A stretch of DNA of 64,000 nt, taken from Salinivenus iranica. GTDB taxonomy: Bacteria > Bacteroidota > Rhodothermia > Rhodothermales > Salinibacteraceae. Shown piece after piece: positions 15,494-26,041 of the stretch (position 1 is the stretch's first letter; the number at the start of each line of letters is the position of its first letter). The DNA is taken from contig NCRB01000006.1 of assembly GCA_002894665.1 (NCBI GenBank), positions 1-64,000 on the forward strand, given 5' to 3'. The notes under the pieces are model-generated. The model saw only the letters and a program-made list of their open reading frames with translations. It did not search any database and was not told where the DNA came from. The position numbers and the translations under genes were made by a program.

Positions 15494-15515
15494 GACGTCC
15501 CGGACCCCGAAGGTT

Positions 15516-15529
15516 TGGAAGCGGTTCCA
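15516..15529. promoter_or_regulatory. LacI/cre-like palindrome upstream of fbp (first copy)
   Basis: TGGAAGCGGTTCCA, with arms TGGAA/TTCCA around a central CG, fits the general LacI-family operator form TGnAAnCGnTTnCA. It lies about 73 bases before ATG 15602 and closely resembles the two GGAAGCGCTTT sites upstream of glpK, suggesting shared control. No LacI-family gene is in the window. Confidence 0.4.
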
Positions 15530-15601
15530 CTTCTTGCTTACCTTCCCCGGATGTCTTCGGACCCTCCGTTGGTTCTCGAATCCACTCAATTCCCCTACGT
15601 C

Positions 15602-16678
15602 ATGTCTACTTCTGACTCGCCCGTGTCTTCTCAGAGGGATGGGGCCATCGATTCCGAACTCGGCGACTTTGAGACGCTTGAACAGTTCATTCTTGAGCAG
15701 CAGGATCGATTTCCGCACTCTACGGGGGCCTTTTCGCGGCTGCTGCGCGACATCAGCCTCGCGGCAAAGATTGTCAACCGCGACATGCGAAAGGCGGGGC
15801 TCATCGACATCTACGGCAGCACGGGGGAGACGAACGTGCAGGGAGAAGTCCAGCAGAAAATGGATGCCCTGGCGCACCGCGAGTTTGTGCTGGCCCTGCG
15901 TCGAGGGGGGGAGTGCTGTTTGATTGGGTCGGAGGAGCACGCGGAAGCCATCCCGCTGAGCACCACCTCGGAAGGGGATGGCGAGTACATCGTGCTGCTC
16001 GACCCCCTGGACGGCTCCTCCAACATCGACGTCTGCGTATCGGTGGGCACCATCTTCAGCATCTACCGCCTCCCGGACGATTACGAAAAGGAGGAGCCGG
16101 AGCTCGACGCGGCCCTGCAGCCGGGGACCGAGCAGGTGGCGGCCGGCTATGTGGTGTACGGGTCCTCCACGATGCTCGTGTACACCACCGGCAACGGCGT
16201 GAACGGCTTTACGCTCGACCCGTCGATCGGGGAGTTCCTGTTGTCGCATCCCAATCTGAAGACGCCGGACCGCGGGCGCATCTTTTCGATTAATGCTGGA
16301 TACTATAATTCCTTCGACGGCGGGCTGCGCGACTATCTCGACTGGCTGCAGGAAACCGACGCTGAATCCAACCGGCCGGCCAAGACGCGGTATATCGGCT
16401 CGTTTGTCTCCGACTTCCACCGCAATCTGATCAAGGGGGGGATCTACATGTACCCGGCCACGCAGGGAAGCCCCTCCGGCAAGCTGCGACTCATGTACGA
16501 GGCAAACCCCATGGCCTTCATTGCGGAAGAGGCCGGGGGGCGGGCCACCGACGGGTACACGCGCATTCTGGAGAAACAGCCCGAGAAGCTTCACCAGCGA
16601 ACGCCCCTCTACATCGGAAGCGCCGACATGGTGCGTCGCGCGGAGGCCTTTTTGCAGGGAGAGCCGGAACGGGTCTGA
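15602..16678 (+). CDS. fbp: Fructose-1,6-bisphosphatase class I, first copy
   Basis: A 358-residue sugar phosphatase hydrolysing fructose-1,6-bisphosphate to fructose-6-phosphate, the committed gluconeogenic step. The metal-binding core LLDPLDGSSNID is intact, with the upstream GEEC-like element appearing as RRGGECCLIGSEE. Substrate-binding segments GSFVSDFHRNL, GGIYMYP, KLRLMYEANPMAF and EEAGGRATDG are all present. ATG 15602 is preferred because it matches the length of the second copy at 24,965 and leaves the operator-like palindrome outside the gene; ATGs at 15515 and 15551 are in frame. It lies convergent to the end of the glycerol operon, and the two copies flank the glycerol genes on both sides. 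Confidence 0.95.
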   Translation: MSTSDSPVSSQRDGAIDSELGDFETLEQFILEQQDRFPHSTGAFSRLLRDISLAAKIVNRDMRKAGLIDIYGSTGETNVQGEVQQKMDALAHREFVLALRRGGECCLIGSEEHAEAIPLSTTSEGDGEYIVLLDPLDGSSNIDVCVSVGTIFSIYRLPDDYEKEEPELDAALQPGTEQVAAGYVVYGSSTMLVYTTGNGVNGFTLDPSIGEFLLSHPNLKTPDRGRIFSINAGYYNSFDGGLRDYLDWLQETDAESNRPAKTRYIGSFVSDFHRNLIKGGIYMYPATQGSPSGKLRLMYEANPMAFIAEEAGGRATDGYTRILEKQPEKLHQRTPLYIGSADMVRRAEAFLQGEPERV

Positions 16679-16825: not shown

Positions 16826-18064
16826 CTAGAAGTTGAGCGAAAGCTCGGACGTGACGCCCGACCAGTTGTTGCCCACCTGGCCGTACGAGTTAACGCCTTC
16901 CACCTGTCGAACGCCTTCGACCTTGAAGAGGGCCCGGTCGAACACCTCATACCCGAACCCGACCTGAATCCGACTCACGGACGTGTGATCGTCCGGGGCG
17001 TCCTCCGAGGTATTTCCCACGTAGGTGAAGCGGCCTGCAAGGTAGAAGTCCGGCGTCAGGTTGGCCTTTGCGCCGATGCCACCGAAGAACGCCGAGTTCC
17101 GGTCGTTTCCTACCTCGTCTTCGTCGTCGGTCGCGAAGCCGGCCCACACGTCAATGTCGGCGACGCCCGGCGTAAGTTTTGCGTCGGCCTGGACGATCGT
17201 TCCCGACGGCATGTTCACGTGGGTGTGCGTGGAGGAGGTGGCGCCGCCGCCGATCAGGTTGTAGTTTTCGCGGTCCCCGTTGGCGAAGACCAGTCCATTC
17301 TGCCCGTCCTGCACTTCCGGGGTGTTCGGGGGAACCCCCTCGCCGGTGTGGAAGGCGCCTCCCGCCCCCACCTTAAAGAGGGGAGAGCCAGTATAGCGGA
17401 CCTTCCCAATCACGTTGACGCCGGTGTAGTCGGTGGTCGTAAAGTCCTCGCCGAACGAGCGGTTGACGGTCACGTCGAACCCGAAGGTGTCGTAGGTTCC
17501 GATGAGCTTCACGCCGTGTGCGGCGGTAATCATGTCGGCGGGGGAGTTGCCGATGAGCGGATTCCCCTGCGTGACCGGTCCGTCCGAGAAGCCGCGGAAG
17601 TTGATGAGGCCGGTGACCGGGGTCCCCGTCCGGAACGTCAGCTGGTCGGTCAGGGCCAGGTCAATCGTCACAAAGTCCACAGCGGGAGCGAACCCATTTG
17701 TCCCGAAGTCATTCGGTTCGGCTTCGAGCATCAGGAGCCCGCTCACCCGCTCAGAGAACTGCACGCTGGCATTGAGGCCGGCGCGGACCTGATGAAAGCC
17801 CGAGTAGCTGCCAGAGGAGACCCCGGCCGAGGTGAGGGGCAGGTTTTCGTCGTCGACCGTGAGGGCCTGCGCCGACTGCATGAGGTTCACGGACAGGTCG
17901 ATGGAGGGGTAGGAATCCTCGTCGTCCTCGGACTGCGCATGCGACGCATGAGGAAGGAGCGCAACGCTGAGGGCCAGGGCCAGGAGCCCGACGCCGAGGG
18001 AGCGGAGGAGCGAGCCGACCCGTCCAGTCGAGGAGGAGACGAATGTAGTGTCTGAAGAGTGCAT
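16826..18064 (-). CDS. Outer-membrane porin-like protein, last gene of glycerol operon
   Basis: A 412-residue exported beta-barrel. The signal peptide (LGVGLLALALSVALLPHASHAQ) ends near residue 44, followed by an acidic mature N-terminus. The rest has alternating amphipathic strands with Gly-rich turns, and the last residues TSELSLNF end in Phe, the classical outer-membrane insertion signal. It is last in a minus-strand row glpK-glpD-permease-porin, 74 bases after the permease gene, and a strong terminator follows. By position it is a candidate outer-membrane channel for glycerol or glycerol-containing compounds, but no specificity motif is known to me. The strand pattern resembles DUF-type porins of Bacteroidota rather than OmpF. 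Confidence 0.75.
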   Translation of the reverse strand: MHSSDTTFVSSSTGRVGSLLRSLGVGLLALALSVALLPHASHAQSEDDEDSYPSIDLSVNLMQSAQALTVDDENLPLTSAGVSSGSYSGFHQVRAGLNASVQFSERVSGLLMLEAEPNDFGTNGFAPAVDFVTIDLALTDQLTFRTGTPVTGLINFRGFSDGPVTQGNPLIGNSPADMITAAHGVKLIGTYDTFGFDVTVNRSFGEDFTTTDYTGVNVIGKVRYTGSPLFKVGAGGAFHTGEGVPPNTPEVQDGQNGLVFANGDRENYNLIGGGATSSTHTHVNMPSGTIVQADAKLTPGVADIDVWAGFATDDEDEVGNDRNSAFFGGIGAKANLTPDFYLAGRFTYVGNTSEDAPDDHTSVSRIQVGFGYEVFDRALFKVEGVRQVEGVNSYGQVGNNWSGVTSELSLNF

Positions 18065-18138: not shown

Positions 18139-19179
18139 CTAGGGCGTCGGGACCCAGACGGTCGTGCCGAGTACGCCCCCGAAGTAGAGGAGGGCAATCA
18201 CGAACGTGCCGAAGACAATGGCGGCGGCGGGAGGGTCCCAGTGCGTGTCGCCGTGGGCGTAAAAGATGCGCTGGAAGGCCTCGCCAAACAGGGCGCAGAC
18301 CAGTCCAAACAAGGCACCGACAATGAGCCCGGTCGTATCCGAAGCGCCCGTGAGGAGTCCGGCCTCCACGCCGTCGCCGCTCGCCACAACCGCCAGGGCG
18401 ATGGTGCTCGCGGGAAGCGTCATGTGGTGCGTGACCGGGAATTTCTCAACCCCGAGGTTGAGGAACAGGAGGGAGGCGGCACTGATGCCGAAAGCCAGGA
18501 AGGGACTTCCCGTTTCGAGGGCGGCGTAGGCCCCGAGGAAGCCAGCGACGAGCCCCAGAAAGGCCACGTTGCTCCATTTGTACTGATGGGGGAGCCACGG
18601 CTCTACGGCGAACCGATCTGTGGCCGACTTGATGTGATCCGAGATGGTTCCCGCGTCGGAGCTCCGTGTTTCCTCTCGCTCGAACGGGCCCATGTCGAAA
18701 AAGCCGGCGCCGTGCACTTTGCCGATCAGGCTGTAGCCGAGGAAGAGGCGGTGGAACAGGGCGGACAGGACGACGCCCATGGCGATGGGGTCCCACGGCA
18801 TCCCGAACGACACGGACACCTGCCGAATGAGGACGCCGAGAATGCCAAACAGTCCCCCCACGACCAGCACGTCGACGTTGAGCCCGAGCGCGGCGGTGAT
18901 GTTTTTCGACTCGTGGAAGTCGAAGCCAGTTTGCATGTATCCCCTTTTGGCGGCGTAGGCGGCCGCGGCGGCCCCGCCGGCGAAGGAGACGTGCGGGCCG
19001 AAGAAGGCGCCGAAGGCGAGGGACCCGGTGACGCCGTCGAGTCCCCCGGCCTCACCGGCAATCACCATGATTCCGGTGAAAACAAAGGCGGGCAGGGCCC
19101 CAATGGCGGCTCCGAAGGCGCCCCCGGCGAAGGCGGCGAGGAGGAGGTACATCCAGTTGAGATCGAGAAGCGCTTCCAT
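18139..19179 (-). CDS. Multi-TM membrane protein, candidate glycerol permease
   Basis: A 346-residue integral membrane protein with roughly nine to ten hydrophobic segments split by an acidic cytoplasmic-looking loop (around residues 170-200). Gly/Ala-rich helices such as GAAIGALPAFVFTGIMVIAG and LIVGALFGLVCALFGEAF dominate. It lacks the two NPA boxes of aquaglyceroporins (GlpF) and shows no GlpT or ABC signature. Its gene lies 88 bases after glpD and 74 before the porin in the glycerol operon. As I recall, haloarchaeal glp operons also carry an uncharacterised membrane protein next to glpK, proposed as a facilitator. Glycerol uptake across the inner membrane is therefore the best inference, not a demonstrated function. 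ATG 19179 gives a short periplasmic lead before the first helix. Confidence 0.7.
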   Translation of the reverse strand: MEALLDLNWMYLLLAAFAGGAFGAAIGALPAFVFTGIMVIAGEAGGLDGVTGSLAFGAFFGPHVSFAGGAAAAAYAAKRGYMQTGFDFHESKNITAALGLNVDVLVVGGLFGILGVLIRQVSVSFGMPWDPIAMGVVLSALFHRLFLGYSLIGKVHGAGFFDMGPFEREETRSSDAGTISDHIKSATDRFAVEPWLPHQYKWSNVAFLGLVAGFLGAYAALETGSPFLAFGISAASLLFLNLGVEKFPVTHHMTLPASTIALAVVASGDGVEAGLLTGASDTTGLIVGALFGLVCALFGEAFQRIFYAHGDTHWDPPAAAIVFGTFVIALLYFGGVLGTTVWVPTP

Positions 19180-19267: not shown

Positions 19268-20848
19268 TCAGTTGAGGATGTGTGAGAGCAAGTACCCCTC
19301 AGCGACCTCGGTAAAGTTCTCGACTTGTTTTGCTTCCCAATCGGCATCGTAGCCCTTCTCCTCGGCCATGAGCGCAGCCACGTCGGGGGCGATGTCAATC
19401 GACGCCTGTGCATTCAGCAGCAGGCAGCGTGTGCGACGGGAGAGGACATCTTCGACGGTCCGTGCCATTTCGTGGCGGGCGGCCCACACGACCTGGACGG
19501 CCCGGAGGGGAAGGCGCTCGTCAAGCGGCTCTCCGAGTTCGGGTCGTTCACGGACCAATTCAAGAAGGGCGGGGGCGTCTGAGCCGTAGTAGGAGAGATC
19601 CCCAAACTGCTCCGGATGCTGGTGCCAGCCGTGGATGGGAAGTTGTTTGGTGGCGGACGGGTGTTCTTCCAGGTTGGCCACTCGGGCCGCCTGATCGATC
19701 GTATCCTCCGCCATTTTGCGGTACGTTGTCCACTTGCCGCCCGAAATGGTCACCAGTCCGCTTTCGGAAACGTGTAGGACGTGCTCCCGGGAGATGTCTG
19801 AGGTGTCGCCGCTGTCGGAGTTGCTTGGATCCGTCACGAGGGGGCGGATGCCCGAGTACACCGACAACACGTCCTCGCGCTGTGGCACCTTGGAAAGGTA
19901 CCGCCCGGCATGATCGAGGAGATACTCCACTTCTTTTTTCATCGGGGCCGGCTCCAGGGCAGGCCCGTCGACTTCCTCGTCGGTTGTTCCCACCACGACG
20001 CGGTCGTGCCAGGGAATGGCGAACAGCACTCGGCCGTCGTCCGTCTTCGGAATCATAATGGCCGAGTCGCCCGGGAGGAAGGAGCGGTCGAGGACCAGGT
20101 GAATCCCCTGAGACGGGCGGAGAGTCGTGCCCGCCGAGGGGTCATCCATCTTCCGGATCGAATCCGTAAAGATGCCGGTAGCGTTAATAACCGTCTTTGC
20201 GTCGATGGTGTAGGTGTCGCCCGTTTCCTGGCATTCAGCCTTTACACCGTGCACCGCCCCGTATTTTTTCTTCAGGTCCGTGACCTTCATATAGTTGAGG
20301 GCGGTCCCGCCCTGTTCGATGAAGGTCTGGGCCATATTGACGGCCAGGCGGGCGTCGTCGAACTGGCCATCGTAATAGAGCACGCCGCCCCACAGCCCAT
20401 CAGACTTGGCGGTCGGAATGCGCTCCAGCGTTTCGTCGCGCCCGAGAGTCCTGGAACGCCCGAAGCTGTACCCTCGGGCCAGCTGGTCGTATACCTTCAT
20501 TCCGATGCCGTAGTACGGTTTTTCCCACCAGTTGTAGGTGGGGACGACGAAGGGCAACTTCGACACCAGATGCGGAGCGTTTTGCTGAAGCACGCCGCGC
20601 TCATGAAGGGCCTCGAAGACGAGGGAGACGTTGCCCTGCTCCAGGTACCGCACGCCGCCGTGCACCAGTTTGGTTGAGCGACTCGACGTGGCCTTCGCGA
20701 AGTCATGCATCTCAAGGAGGAGCGTATCGTAGCCCCGGGCGGCGGCTTCGATGCCGCACCCCAGTCCCGTGGCTCCGCCCCCGATGATGACGAAGTCCCA
20801 GGCCCCGTCGTGCTGCTGAAATGCGCTCAGTTGGGTTTCGCGTTGCAT
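19268..20848 (-). CDS. glpD: Aerobic glycerol-3-phosphate dehydrogenase (FAD)
   Basis: A 526-residue flavoprotein oxidising sn-glycerol-3-phosphate to DHAP and passing electrons to the quinone pool at the inner membrane. The FAD-binding GxGxxG is VIIGGGATGLGCGIEAAARG near the start, followed by EMHDFAKATSSRSTKLVHGGVRYLE-like residues typical of GlpD. Other landmarks are GIRPLVTDPS and ISGGKWTTYRKMAED. The C-terminal GlpD helical domain is present, so it is full length. ATG 20848 (MQRETQLSAF) was selected over one at 20995 because the extra residues are low-complexity. It follows glpK after 101 bases in the same operon. Confidence 0.96.
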   Translation of the reverse strand: MQRETQLSAFQQHDGAWDFVIIGGGATGLGCGIEAAARGYDTLLLEMHDFAKATSSRSTKLVHGGVRYLEQGNVSLVFEALHERGVLQQNAPHLVSKLPFVVPTYNWWEKPYYGIGMKVYDQLARGYSFGRSRTLGRDETLERIPTAKSDGLWGGVLYYDGQFDDARLAVNMAQTFIEQGGTALNYMKVTDLKKKYGAVHGVKAECQETGDTYTIDAKTVINATGIFTDSIRKMDDPSAGTTLRPSQGIHLVLDRSFLPGDSAIMIPKTDDGRVLFAIPWHDRVVVGTTDEEVDGPALEPAPMKKEVEYLLDHAGRYLSKVPQREDVLSVYSGIRPLVTDPSNSDSGDTSDISREHVLHVSESGLVTISGGKWTTYRKMAEDTIDQAARVANLEEHPSATKQLPIHGWHQHPEQFGDLSYYGSDAPALLELVRERPELGEPLDERLPLRAVQVVWAARHEMARTVEDVLSRRTRCLLLNAQASIDIAPDVAALMAEEKGYDADWEAKQVENFTEVAEGYLLSHILN

Positions 20849-20949
20849 AGATTGGAGTCGAAAGACAAGTGCGATCGGACGAGAGGCAGTACCGGGCGCG
20901 ACCCGCTCCGTCGGGTCGCGCCCAGAGAGGCATCTGCCAACTGTGGTCG

Positions 20950-22473
20950 TTAAGAGGCAACCTCCGCCTCCTCTTCCTTTTGGATCTTCGCCCACCCCTT
21001 AGACCGCTCCACGGCGCGGTTCCACTGCTTCCGTTTCCGCTCCACCTCGGAGGCGTCCATCTGGGGCTCGAAGCGAGAGTCGACCGACCATTGCTTCGAG
21101 ATCGACTCTACGCTGTCGTAGTACCCGACGGCAAGGCCGGCCAGGTAAGCGGCGCCCAGGGCCGTCGTTTCGCGGAGCTGGGGGCGGACCACAGGGGCCT
21201 CAAGCAGGTCCGCCTGCATCTGCATCAGCAGGTCATTCTGCGAGGCGCCCCCGTCGACGCGAAGCTCGTTGAAGTCAATGCCGGAGTCGGCCTCCGCGGC
21301 GCGAATGACGTCGACCGACTGAAAGGCGATGCTTTCCAGGGCGGCGCGGGCGATGTGGGACTCGTTCGTGCCCCGGGTCATGCCGACGATCGTTCCGCGG
21401 GCGTACTGGTCCCAGTGCGGTGCCCCCAGGCCCGTAAACGCTGGAACGAGGTATACCCCGTCCGTCGAGTCGACCTTGCTGGCGAGATACTCCACGTCCG
21501 CGGAGGAGCGGATCATGCGCAACTCGTCTCGGAGCCATTGCACCACGGCCCCCGTGACGAAGATGCTGCCTTCCAGGGCGTACTGCGTCGGCTCATCGCC
21601 CAGCTTCCAGGCAATGGTGGTGAGCAGGTCGTTCTCCGACTTGACGGGGGTTTCGCCGGTGTTCATCAGCACGAAGGAGCCGGTCCCGTACGTGTTTTTC
21701 CCCATGCCAACATCCGTGCACACCTGCCCGAAGAGGGCGGACTGCTGGTCGCCCGCAATGCCTGCGATGGGAACGGAGGCACTGAAGGCGTTGCTGCTCG
21801 TCTTTCCGTACACTTCGCTGGAGGGGCGGACCTCCGGAAGGACTGAGCGGGGGACATCGAGGATGTCCAGAAGCTCATCGTCCCATTTTTCCTCCCGGAT
21901 GTTGTACATAAGCGTCCGTGAGGCATTGGTGACATCGGTGATGTGCTCTTCGCCATCCGTCAGATTCCAAACCAGCCAGGAATCGACGGTGCCGAAGGCG
22001 AGTTCACCGCGTTCTGCTCGCTCACGCGCCCCGTCTACGTTTTCCAGAATCCAGCGGACCTTCGTGCCGGAGAAGTAGGAGTCAAGCACGAGCCCCGTCT
22101 TTTCCTGGAACAGGTCCACGAGGCCCTGATCCTTGAGGCGGTCGCAGAATTCAGCGGTGCGACGGTCCTGCCACACGATCGCGTTGTGGACCGGCTCCCC
22201 GGTCTCGCGATCCCACACAATCGTGGTTTCTCGCTGATTGGTGATGCCGATGGCGGCAATATCCTGGGGGCGCGCGCCGACTTTGCTCACCGCTTCTGCG
22301 GCGACCCCGGCCTGGGTGGACCAGATCTCCTTTGGGTCGTGTTCTACCCATCCCGGATTCGGGTAGAACTGCTGAAACTCATTCTGGGCGATCGTTTCGA
22401 TCTGCCCCTGCTTATTGAAGATGATGGCCCGCGAGCTCGTCGTGCCTTGGTCAAGGGAAAGAATGTACTGCAT
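20950..22473 (-). CDS. glpK: Glycerol kinase
   Basis: A 507-residue FGGY-family carbohydrate kinase that phosphorylates glycerol to sn-glycerol-3-phosphate, trapping it in the cell. The phosphate-1 motif [19 protein letters not shown] starts the protein. [35 protein letters not shown] and the C-terminal [18 protein letters not shown] segment are all intact, as is the length. It is the first gene of a minus-strand operon with glpD, a permease and a porin. The 337-base region before it is shared with the divergent AraC-type regulator and holds a plausible promoter with an operator in its spacer. Confidence 0.97.
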
Positions 22474-22810: not shown

Positions 22811-23734
22811 ATGGCCAACGAGCCAGCCATCGATCGATCGTCGGGGAGGCTCTTTATTCCGGAGGGAGAGGGGCAGCGTGGGGGGCGGAAGCATACGCTG
22901 GCGATGTTTCGCACAGGCCCGCCGTCTTCGTCGGTGTCTTTGCACGCGCCGTACCTCGTCTACTACGGTCTGCTGTCGGGGCAGGCGGCCGTGCGGGGGC
23001 CCGATGTGCGGGAGAGGCATTTGGAGGCGGGGCAGTCGATTCTCGTGCCGCCGTTGCGGTCTTTGCGTTTGCATTTGGGGGGAAGAGAGAAGAACCCAAC
23101 CCAGTGGGTTGCCGTGAAGGTGGATCGCGACCGCGTCCAGACCCTTCTGGAGGAGTTGGATCCGGCTCCGGGGGCAGCGGAGGGCGAGTGGGGGCTCCGA
23201 GAGCGGCCGTACTGTCCTATTGAGCGGACGGAGGGCATTCACCGCACCCTGCAGATGATTGCGTTTGTGTTTGAGAAGGAGCCTCCGCAGCGACACCCGC
23301 TCATCGACCTGAATGTGCAGCAGCTGTTCATCCACCTGCTCCAGACGCCGGCCCGCCCCCTGTTGACGACCGGCTATGCGCGCCATTCCGCCGACGGGGG
23401 CATTGCGGCCGCGGTGCAGTACATTCAGGAGCATCTCGACCGCCACATCTCCATCGATGAGTTGGTTGAGGAAGCGTGCATGAGCAAGTCGAGCTTCTAC
23501 CGCCACTTCAATGAGGAATTCGACATGTCCCCACTGGAGTACATCACAGAGCAACGGGTGGCACGGGCCCGGGAGCTGTTGACTGATCAGGCGACGACGG
23601 TGGCCGAGGTGAGCCACGCCCTGGGGTTCAGCAGCACCAGCTACTTTATCGACATGTTTAAAGAGCACGTCGGAAAGACCCCGAAGCAATACCAGCTGGA
23701 CGTGGCAGAGACGACTGTCCCGGCGTCCGGGTGA
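22811..23734 (+). CDS. AraC-family transcriptional regulator, likely of glycerol genes
   Basis: A 307-residue regulator with a cupin-like N-terminal sensing domain (about residues 20-170) and a C-terminal double helix-turn-helix (about 200-300). The first HTH reads ISIDELVEEACMSKSSFYRHF and the second TTVAEVSHALGFSSTSYFID, followed by the AraC signature MFKEHVGKTPKQY. It is divergent from glpK with shared inverted repeats between, so control of the glycerol operon is inferred; the DeoR-type GlpR found in many bacteria is not seen here. It is followed after 95 bases by gpsA. The inducer (glycerol, G3P or dihydroxyacetone) cannot be told from sequence. Confidence 0.88.
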   Translation: MANEPAIDRSSGRLFIPEGEGQRGGRKHTLAMFRTGPPSSSVSLHAPYLVYYGLLSGQAAVRGPDVRERHLEAGQSILVPPLRSLRLHLGGREKNPTQWVAVKVDRDRVQTLLEELDPAPGAAEGEWGLRERPYCPIERTEGIHRTLQMIAFVFEKEPPQRHPLIDLNVQQLFIHLLQTPARPLLTTGYARHSADGGIAAAVQYIQEHLDRHISIDELVEEACMSKSSFYRHFNEEFDMSPLEYITEQRVARARELLTDQATTVAEVSHALGFSSTSYFIDMFKEHVGKTPKQYQLDVAETTVPASG

Positions 23735-23829: not shown

Positions 23830-24882
23830 ATGTCCGCAATCACGCTATTTGGTGCTGGGAGCTGGGGCACGGCCCTTTCGGTGCACCTCGCCTCCGCAGG
23901 GCGCGACATCACGCTCTGGGCGCGTCGGCAGGAGACGGTGGACGCGATTCGGAGCACCTCGCGCAATCCCCAATACCTTTCGTCGATTCCGATTCCGACC
24001 TCCGTCCACGTGACGGCCGACCTTCAGGAGGCCGCGGCGGCCTCGCAGGTGTGGGGCATGACGATGCCATCCCAGAAATTGCGTCCCCGGGCCCAATCCC
24101 TTGAGCCGTACGCGGATGAGACCACTCGGGTCGTCTCGCTCTCGAAGGGAATCGAGAACGAGACGCTCCGCCGGATGACCCAGGTGCTTGACGAGACGCT
24201 CCGGGCCGTGCCGACCGAACAAATCGGGGTTCTGTCCGGGCCGAGTCACGCAGAGGAGGTGGCGGAGGGCTGTCCCACGACCCTGGTGGCCGCCGCGCCC
24301 ACGGAACCGGAAGCCCGCCGCATCCAGAAGGCCTTCATGACGGAGCGGATGCGAATTTACCTGAGCACCGACGTGACGGGGGTGGAGATTGGGGGCTCGA
24401 CCAAAAATGTACTCGCCATCGCCGCGGGCATCGGCGACGGGGTCGGCTACGGGGACAATGCCAAGGCCGCCCTCGTGACGCGGGGCATCGCCGAGATGCG
24501 TCGGCTGGGGCAGGCGATCGGCGCGGACCCGAAAACGTTTTCGGGGCTGTCTGGCATCGGCGACCTCGTGGTGACGTGCATGAGCCAGCACAGCCGCAAT
24601 CGGCGCCTGGGGGAACGGATCGGGCGCGGGGAGCCGCTCGAGGACATCCTGCACGAGATGGACATGGTGGCGGAGGGGGTGCGCACCACGCAGTCGATCT
24701 ATGGCCTTGCGCAGCACCACGGCATCGAAATGCCCATTACGGAAGCCGTGTACTCCGTTCTTTTCCAAGGGCGTGAGCCCGCCGAAATGGTAAAGCGCTT
24801 GATGACCCGCTCGGCCAAGCGAGAGCACTGGCTCCCGGAGGCCTCTGGGAGCCCCGAACTCATGTCCCCGTCCACCGACTAG
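23830..24882 (+). CDS. gpsA: NAD(P)-dependent glycerol-3-phosphate dehydrogenase, copy 1
   Basis: A 350-residue cytosolic dehydrogenase interconverting DHAP and sn-glycerol-3-phosphate. The dinucleotide fold begins ITLFGAGSWGTALSVHLASAG. The catalytic Lys is in GSTKNVLAIAAGIGDGVGYG, with SLSKGIENE, SGPSHAEEVAEG and the C-terminal MDMVAEGVRTTQSI and EMPITEAVY. A second complete gpsA lies at 32,932 beside plsY. This copy lies between the glycerol regulator and a second fbp, so it may serve glycerol/DHAP balance rather than lipid synthesis; that split is inference from position only. The two proteins are very similar throughout. Confidence 0.95.
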   Translation: MSAITLFGAGSWGTALSVHLASAGRDITLWARRQETVDAIRSTSRNPQYLSSIPIPTSVHVTADLQEAAAASQVWGMTMPSQKLRPRAQSLEPYADETTRVVSLSKGIENETLRRMTQVLDETLRAVPTEQIGVLSGPSHAEEVAEGCPTTLVAAAPTEPEARRIQKAFMTERMRIYLSTDVTGVEIGGSTKNVLAIAAGIGDGVGYGDNAKAALVTRGIAEMRRLGQAIGADPKTFSGLSGIGDLVVTCMSQHSRNRRLGERIGRGEPLEDILHEMDMVAEGVRTTQSIYGLAQHHGIEMPITEAVYSVLFQGREPAEMVKRLMTRSAKREHWLPEASGSPELMSPSTD

Positions 24883-24964: not shown

Positions 24965-26041
24965 ATGTCGTCCGTCTCCTCTATCGAGTCGATCCCCGAG
25001 TCGTCGTCATCGGAGTCCCTGATGACCTTGGAGCAATTCATTATCGACCGCCACGAAAAGTTTTCGCACGCCACCGGATCGTTTGCCCGTCTCATCCGGG
25101 ACGTCAGCGTGGCGGCCAAGATCATCAACCACAACATTCGGCGGGCCGGCATTCTCGACGTGCGAGGCGAGACGGGCACGGTGAACGTGCAGGACGAGCG
25201 GCAAAAGAAGCTCGACTGGATCGCCGATCGCGAGCTGGAGCGGGCCCTCCGGAAGGGAGGCGAGTGTTGCCTTGTCGGATCTGAGGAGCAGCCGGAAACC
25301 ATTCCCCTCGACCCCAATCGGGAGGCCAAGGAGCGCTACGCCGTGTTTTTTGATCCGCTCGACGGGTCGTCGAACACGGACGTCAACGCTTCGGTCGGGA
25401 CGATCTTTAGCGTGTACACCCTGCCCGAGCACGTGCAACCGGACGATGCGATGGATGTGGTGCTCCGTCCGGGCCGCGAGCAGGTGGCCGCCGGCTATGT
25501 GGCCTACGGCTCCTCCACCATGTTCGTCTTCACGACGGGGGACGGCGTCAACGGCTTCACCCTCGACCCGTCGATTGGGGAGTTTATGCTGTCGCACCCC
25601 GACCTGAAGATTCCGGATGAGGGGCGCATGTATTCGATTAATGAGGCCGACATCGAGGACTTTTCCCCCGAGCTGCGGTCATTCCTGAGCTGGTTGAAAA
25701 AGAAGGATTCCGAGACGGGGGCCCGGATTCGGGCCCGCTACATTGGCTCGTTCGTCTCGGACTTTCACCGCAATTTGCTGACGGGCGGGCTGTACATGTA
25801 CCCGTCCACCGCCGACCATCCGCAGGGCAAGCTGCGGCTGATGTATGAGGCCAACCCGATGGCCTTTCTCGTTGAGCAGGCCGGCGGGCGCGCAACGAAT
25901 GGGCACCAGCGGATTCTCGACATTGACCCAACGGAGTTGCACGAGCGCACCCCGCTGTACATCGGCAGTCCGTCCCTGGTGGAGCGGGCCGGGGCCTTTC
26001 TTGAGGGCCGCGGGTCCGAGTCGTCGTCCGCGAACGCATAG
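24965..26041 (+). CDS. fbp: Fructose-1,6-bisphosphatase class I, second copy
   Basis: A 358-residue paralogue of the enzyme at 15,602, same length, with all catalytic segments: GGECCLVGSEEQ, FFDPLDGSSNTDVN (metal-binding DPLDGSS), GSFVSDFHRNLL, LYMYP, KLRLMYEANPMAF and EQAGGRATNG. Differences are concentrated in the N-terminal leader and in the loop after about residue 220. It lies 82 bases after gpsA on the same strand, downstream of the AraC-type regulator, linking glycerol-derived triose phosphate to gluconeogenesis. Both copies look functional, so differential regulation is the likely reason for keeping two. Confidence 0.95.
   Translation: MSSVSSIESIPESSSSESLMTLEQFIIDRHEKFSHATGSFARLIRDVSVAAKIINHNIRRAGILDVRGETGTVNVQDERQKKLDWIADRELERALRKGGECCLVGSEEQPETIPLDPNREAKERYAVFFDPLDGSSNTDVNASVGTIFSVYTLPEHVQPDDAMDVVLRPGREQVAAGYVAYGSSTMFVFTTGDGVNGFTLDPSIGEFMLSHPDLKIPDEGRMYSINEADIEDFSPELRSFLSWLKKKDSETGARIRARYIGSFVSDFHRNLLTGGLYMYPSTADHPQGKLRLMYEANPMAFLVEQAGGRATNGHQRILDIDPTELHERTPLYIGSPSLVERAGAFLEGRGSESSSANA

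Follow-up and report, generated by a model that had tools for sequence, protein, structure and literature searches.

A predicted membrane protein of 346 amino acids, encoded in a glycerol catabolic operon of Salinivenus iranica (in a stretch of 64,000 nucleotides of contig NCRB01000006.1, here called the window), is, in what we regard as the probable reading of sequence comparisons and structure models, an inner-membrane glycerol facilitator, probably a channel of the urea transporter type. Glycerol is quite likely its substrate; given transport, a channel is modestly favoured over a coupled carrier, and a urea-transporter-like pore is about an even call. By homology, the protein is a new bacterial member of the haloarchaeal glpK-adjacent family of Anderson et al. 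(2011), which that paper predicts to be glycerol transporters (PMC3102087). The Natrinema J7-2 paper repeats this prediction (PMC3402447), a transcriptome study of Haloquadratum grown on glycerol and pyruvate reports that HQ1732A and glpK are cotranscribed and proposes a role in the uptake of glycerol (PMC5496347), and a further paper describes GlpF as rarer than glycerol kinase in Archaea, other transporters being suggested (PMC11962113). A literature search, with most subscription papers outside its reach, found no transport assay of the family and no such fold proposal; new here, relative to the print found, are the replacement of transporters in one gene slot, the direction of transfer of the transporter gene alone and a lead on the fold. 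An earlier note, made from the DNA letters of the window, had raised the possibility of a new glycerol transport family; no Pfam or NCBIfam family covers the protein, and the glycerol-transporter prediction is already published (PMC3102087).

The minus-strand order of the cluster is glpK, glpD, the gene of the 346-aa protein and a porin-like gene (Table 1). The earlier note had described an open reading frame of 346 residues between glpD and a porin, with a product of about ten Gly/Ala-rich helices that lacked NPA boxes and MFS or ABC features. All of this was borne out: the coordinates were exact, with the gene on the minus strand, the AlphaFold model has ten helices, Gly and Ala make up 29% of the protein, the NPA motif is absent from its sequence, and no MFS or ABC transporter match to Pfam was found for the protein or among the 25 of 31 families listed for 79 members. 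The gene is real as judged by its conservation in its own family and in haloarchaea. The start of glpD was picked as an ATG inside a longer mechanical ORF (19268-20995), and GlpD is, unremarkably, 64 to 75% identical in other Salinibacteraceae (99% in the near-identical genome G001). The AraC-type gene likely encodes the regulator of the glycerol cluster, which is flanked by two class I fructose-1,6-bisphosphatase genes. Promoter and terminator scans gave matches near chance level, and the hairpin 3' of the 346-aa gene folded no better than shuffled sequences.

Table 1. Features of the glycerol cluster and its flanks in the window
Feature	Position	Strand	Basis
Fructose-1,6-bisphosphatase, first copy, other flank of cluster	15515..16678	+	Pfam
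Porin-like outer-membrane beta-barrel gene	16826..18064	-	PF13505 (OMP_b-brl) below cut-off; synteny
Candidate glycerol facilitator, 346-aa membrane protein	18139..19179	-	ORF with ATG start and stop; homologs; helix model
glpD, FAD-dependent glycerol-3-phosphate dehydrogenase	19268..20848 (about)	-	Pfam DAO and DAO_C; start and homologs checked
glpK, glycerol kinase	20950..22473	-	Pfam FGGY_N/FGGY_C; TIGR01311 over cut-off
AraC-type regulator, divergent from glpK	22811..23734	+	Pfam HTH_18/HTH_AraC; same place in ABC-type clusters
gpsA, NAD-dependent glycerol-3-phosphate dehydrogenase	23830..24882	+	Pfam
Fructose-1,6-bisphosphatase, second copy	24965..26041	+	Pfam

Searches with the 346-aa protein against Pfam (at cut-off), NCBIfam and the PDB sequences gave nothing relevant; Amt/Rh families of Pfam were likewise matched neither by the protein nor among the 25 of 31 families listed for 79 members. 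Membership of DUF5518 (E 0.033, below cut-off, in 1 of 79 members) was disregarded. Among 41 related genomes the family was present in 12, all from the window's own family (12 of 25 genomes) and none from the 16 others of the order, with identities of 67 to 99% in the 11 further genomes. A scan of genome contigs gave, as the best 80 of 215 relatives, 10 loci of Salinibacteraceae, 9 of Balneolaceae type and 61 of haloarchaea, with Salinivenus lutea (99% identity) and Longimonas halophila among the named relatives; a scan of viral contigs gave no relatives. The haloarchaeal loci match most of the protein, with 51 to 65% identity in the best segment, and mostly adjoin glpK, including those of Haloarcula and Haloquadratum. 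The glpK-adjacent protein known in print as rrnAC0550, HQ1732A or NJ7G_1712 belongs, to judge by comparison with haloarchaeal loci, to the same sequence family, as the earlier note had suggested. In contrast to the haloarchaeal protein, that of the window is encoded in a bacterial operon after glpD, together with a porin, and its GlpK partner is bacterial. Nine plasmid records matched the family, and in the five inspected (Microbacterium, Rhodococcus, Rubrobacter and two haloarchaea) all four annotated copies were labelled hypothetical protein. On the Microbacterium plasmid the homolog is followed by glpK and then a glycerol-3-phosphate dehydrogenase gene. The Rhodococcus homolog lies with genes for NDMA-dependent alcohol dehydrogenase, aldehyde dehydrogenase and acryloyl-CoA reductase, and the Rubrobacter homolog with transketolase and FGGY kinase genes.

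Linkage to glpK was assessed in 116 genomes of the haloarchaeal class, 81 of which carried the family and 92 a TIGR01311 match over cut-off. A link to glp genes in other genomes, as the earlier note's idea implied, was found: 81 of 93 family genes followed glpK on the same strand at a distance of no more than 300 bp, and none of the 81 preceded it. This count includes manual corrections for contig-end fragments of glpK (G047, G129, G159), added or joined by hand, and for a copy in G082 that was split into two pieces; a weak kinase match in G127 was left out. Both genes occurred in 80 genomes, the family only in 1, glpK only in 13 and neither in 22, with one genome counted in on a fragmentary glpK (Fisher P of about 1e-13, shared ancestry not being corrected for). 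A genome can have glpK without the 346-aa protein, since 13 of the 93 glpK-bearing haloarchaeal genomes lacked the family and, upon inspection of all 13, a MIP gene was directly beside glpK in 2 and no recognised transporter in 11, recognition being by BLAST against the probe set only. MIP matches over cut-off were present in 6 of the 116 genomes; exclusion is not absolute in haloarchaea, because G064 and G119 carry both a family gene and, on another contig, a MIP gene. The family may also carry other solutes, because 12 of the 93 haloarchaeal copies and all 9 of Balneolaceae type are without adjacent glpK (some contigs being short).

The gene slot beside glpK was compared across 25 genomes of the window's family. 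The 346-aa protein was present in 12, a DUF2160-type ABC importer in 8 (7 over cut-off and 1 cut by a contig end), a MIP/GlpF protein in 1 and none of the three in 4, all of which are 83% complete or less. No genome carried two of the three transporter types; for 8 and 12 genomes among 25, zero overlap would have a chance of 0.0012 under an assumption of independence that does not hold for these genomes. MIP was over cut-off in that 1 genome of the 25, and a further genome, G002, had a MIP match below cut-off. In 7 of the 8 ABC-bearing genomes glpK heads a row of genes for two ATPases, two permeases and the DUF2160 protein, with a binding protein and a porin homolog next where the stretch reaches that far, and on the other side AraC and usually gpsA and fbp, as in the window; domains were assigned by Pfam in one such cluster (L117), to which the remaining ones were matched by BLAST. 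Gene order in G015 is glpK-MIP-porin. Three transporters that are unrelated to each other thus occupy much the same setting of regulator and porin genes.

In seven Salinibacter-type loci of the same genus (L115-L121, from G003, G011, G004, G007, G005, G009 and G002), the DUF2160-type ABC importer follows glpK, and these loci are a clean transporter swap within one genus. We take DUF2160-type ABC systems to carry glycerol, as in Rhizobium. ABC-bearing genomes nest inside family-bearing ones in the GlpK tree, which suggests that the ABC system replaced the 346-aa protein. These importers (GlpSTPQUV-like) occupy the same slot and differ from the 346-aa protein in being multisubunit, ATP driven and unrelated to it. 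The aquaglyceroporins (GlpF/MIP; PF00230) share the slot beside glpK and probably the function, whereas the 346-aa protein is without a PF00230 match, NPA boxes or profile similarity to them and has a different helix plan. Slot sharing and linkage provide good indirect evidence for glycerol uptake by the 346-aa protein, and the role of candidate glycerol transporter proposed in the earlier note is supported, as a predicted function, by this replacement in the same slot. Homologs of the porin of the window were also observed beside the glycerol transporters of ABC-type and MIP-type clusters; as these homologs adjoin glycerol transporters, the porin may serve specifically as the pore for glycerol in the outer membrane.

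The AlphaFold2 model of the 346-aa protein, built with 79 sequences, had a pLDDT of 93.6 and a pTM of 0.93, with helices at residues 9-26, 28-45, 62-79, 102-124 and 131-147 and then at 202-223, 228-241 (broken), 251-265, 281-307 and 316-333. A second model, of the Haloferax mucosum member (49 sequences; pLDDT 87.7), had its main helices in the same order and is a partial replicate only, many sequences being common to both. In VIA-align searches, urea transporters took ranks 1 to 10 for the first model (Z 8.3 to 7.7, 175 to 193 aligned, rmsd 4.3 to 4.9) and ranks 1 to 13 for the second (Z 7.9 to 7.1); over both models, these matches had 175 to 203 aligned and rmsd 4.3 to 5.9, and such Z scores lie short of what is safe for helical proteins, which can reach them by common arrangement. 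After the urea transporters came mostly Amt/Rh proteins (Z 6.2 to 4.8), with unrelated rows from about 5, and no Foldseek match reached an E below 0.001. The best structural neighbours of both predicted models are thus urea transporters (PF03253) and Amt/Rh proteins, at a modest Z of about 8 for the former, yet the 346-aa protein has neither a Pfam match nor detectable sequence similarity to urea transporters. Profile similarity of the family to urea transporters or MIP was not found, hhalign against 30 urea transporter sequences giving a P of 0.19 with a higher-scoring reversed control. We regard a urea-transporter-like fold as a lead from the models.

The two halves of the protein are homologous, and the family has an internal repeat: the N half against the C half scored 36.7 in hhalign, whereas none of 60 column shuffles exceeded 22.4 and reversed halves scored 13.8 to 16.0, and PWDPIA in one half aligned with HWDPPA in the other. 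A full-length profile self-comparison showed no repeat, which appeared with split halves only. An inverted orientation of the halves would follow from the model, in which each half has five helices. Residues Y75, D130, W195, T250, H251, H252, E300, R304, H313 and D315, among others, are conserved in 97% or more of the 118 rows, the three actinobacterial ones all included, and may have a role in the pore.

The trees support the transfer between halophiles that the earlier note had considered possible. For the family tree, a quick tree with long actinobacterial branches, 136 rows were thinned to 118 at 95% identity, and L033 was left out of alignment and tree for an internal stop in the computed ORF. 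In this tree, the Salinibacteraceae copies formed one clade (99) inside the haloarchaea, where they grouped with a second archaeon and Halostella pelagica (98 SH-aLRT), and the Balneolaceae copies formed a separate clade (100) elsewhere among the haloarchaea. In the AU test, trees that united the two bacterial groups (P = 0.032) or the core haloarchaea (P = 0.014) in one clade were disfavoured; these P values are moderate and the groups were named after the tree had been seen. In the GlpK tree, also a quick tree, haloarchaeal GlpK formed one clade (100), and the GlpK of the window was nearest to those of other Salinibacteraceae and Rhodothermales. Arrival of glpK with the transporter gene from archaea was rejected, a grouping of family-bearing Salinibacteraceae with haloarchaeal GlpK being disfavoured (P = 0.005). 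Since GlpK stays bacterial and the transporter nests in haloarchaea, the transporter gene appears to have crossed domains alone, from haloarchaea to Salinibacteraceae, with the kinase gene left behind. Vertical inheritance, with a family ancestral to both groups, widely lost and never transferred from archaea, is unlikely: distant actinobacterial homologs exist, and Balneolaceae and Salinibacteraceae are of the same broad bacterial group, which we counted in its favour, but the family is present in only 3 of 296 genomes of a phylum sample, and the nesting and AU results above speak against it.

In the pathway that we propose, the porin would let glycerol across the outer membrane, and the 346-aa protein, presumably in the inner membrane, would let it across in place of GlpF. 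GlpK would trap it as glycerol 3-phosphate, which GlpD would oxidise to dihydroxyacetone phosphate for gluconeogenesis, in keeping with the two flanking fbp genes. The protein would act as a passive channel, similar to urea transporters and Amt, each subunit having its own pore enclosed by two repeats of five helices, and its gene would have come from haloarchaea without the haloarchaeal kinase. An ion-coupled glycerol carrier in place of a channel has a smaller, still appreciable probability, as the invariant R144, H251, H252, E300, R304 and D315 in or near helices could couple to H+ or Na+ and the fold match is weak; the best structural neighbours, however, are channels, and the exclusive alternatives in the slot include a MIP channel.

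It is rather improbable that the protein carries another substrate (dihydroxyacetone, or a different diol or polyol of small size), or exports overflow dihydroxyacetone, with glycerol entering by diffusion. Such a role would agree with the reported release of dihydroxyacetone by Salinibacter ruber (PMC3863723, PMC3102087). Homologs in Rhodococcus and Rubrobacter beside alcohol dehydrogenase or transketolase/FGGY kinase genes, and two haloarchaeal copies beside a different FGGY kinase (26 to 27% to GlpK), point the same way. Against another substrate counts the slot shared with a GlpF-type MIP channel and with an ABC system of a kind known for glycerol in Rhizobium. Very unlikely is a protein that is no transporter at all and instead anchors GlpD/GlpA or GlpK to the membrane or partners them there, or that serves as a water or osmotic channel: its constant closeness to glpK and the 11 glpK-bearing haloarchaea without a transporter beside glpK would fit, but some genomes carry the family gene at loci without glpK, and relatives have bona fide transporters in the same slot.

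Returning to the glycerol facilitator, a wider reading that joins all parts is tentative and falls somewhat short of an even chance. The family would comprise a further structural kind of glycerol facilitator, channels of a urea transporter/Amt-like type with no relationship to aquaglyceroporins. Haloarchaea would be where they arose or became widespread; from there the gene would have passed, without companions, to two or more lineages of halophilic bacteria, and in a single slot these channels would have taken the place of ABC and MIP importers or given way to them, the wider family in Actinobacteria carrying other short diols or polyols. Halophilic algal glycerol is an important carbon source in brines (PMC3102087). 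If the family is the uptake route, it would explain how dominant brine organisms take up a main food, most haloarchaea being without GlpF; it would also provide a case of transporter exchange across domains, and a textbook step of transport would have gained another structural solution. The pattern of one slot and three transporters makes the published prediction directly testable.

Copies without glpK were also observed. No consistent partner gene was found among the neighbours of such copies in Balneolaceae or of the side copies in Haloarcula, Halonotius and Natrialbaceae, and none of the nine copies of the Balneolaceae-type clade (L054, L060, L065, L069, L082, L089, L091, L097, L099) adjoined glpK, some contigs being short. 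The divergent FGGY kinases beside haloarchaeal copies are located at 4348-5925 in L073 and 4332-5921 in L095, and these copies perhaps carry another polyol. On the Rhodococcus qingshengii plasmid, the distant homolog (L140 6539-7438) lies between the NDMA-dependent alcohol dehydrogenase gene and acyl-CoA/acryloyl-CoA genes, which suggests a diol or C3-alcohol as the substrate of this branch. Three glpK-adjacent haloarchaeal copies (G122:C3:435522, G156:C1:1255916 and G097:C26:23605) have one in-frame stop each, possibly a sign of decay, and G156 carries a second family copy about 8 kb from the one with the stop.
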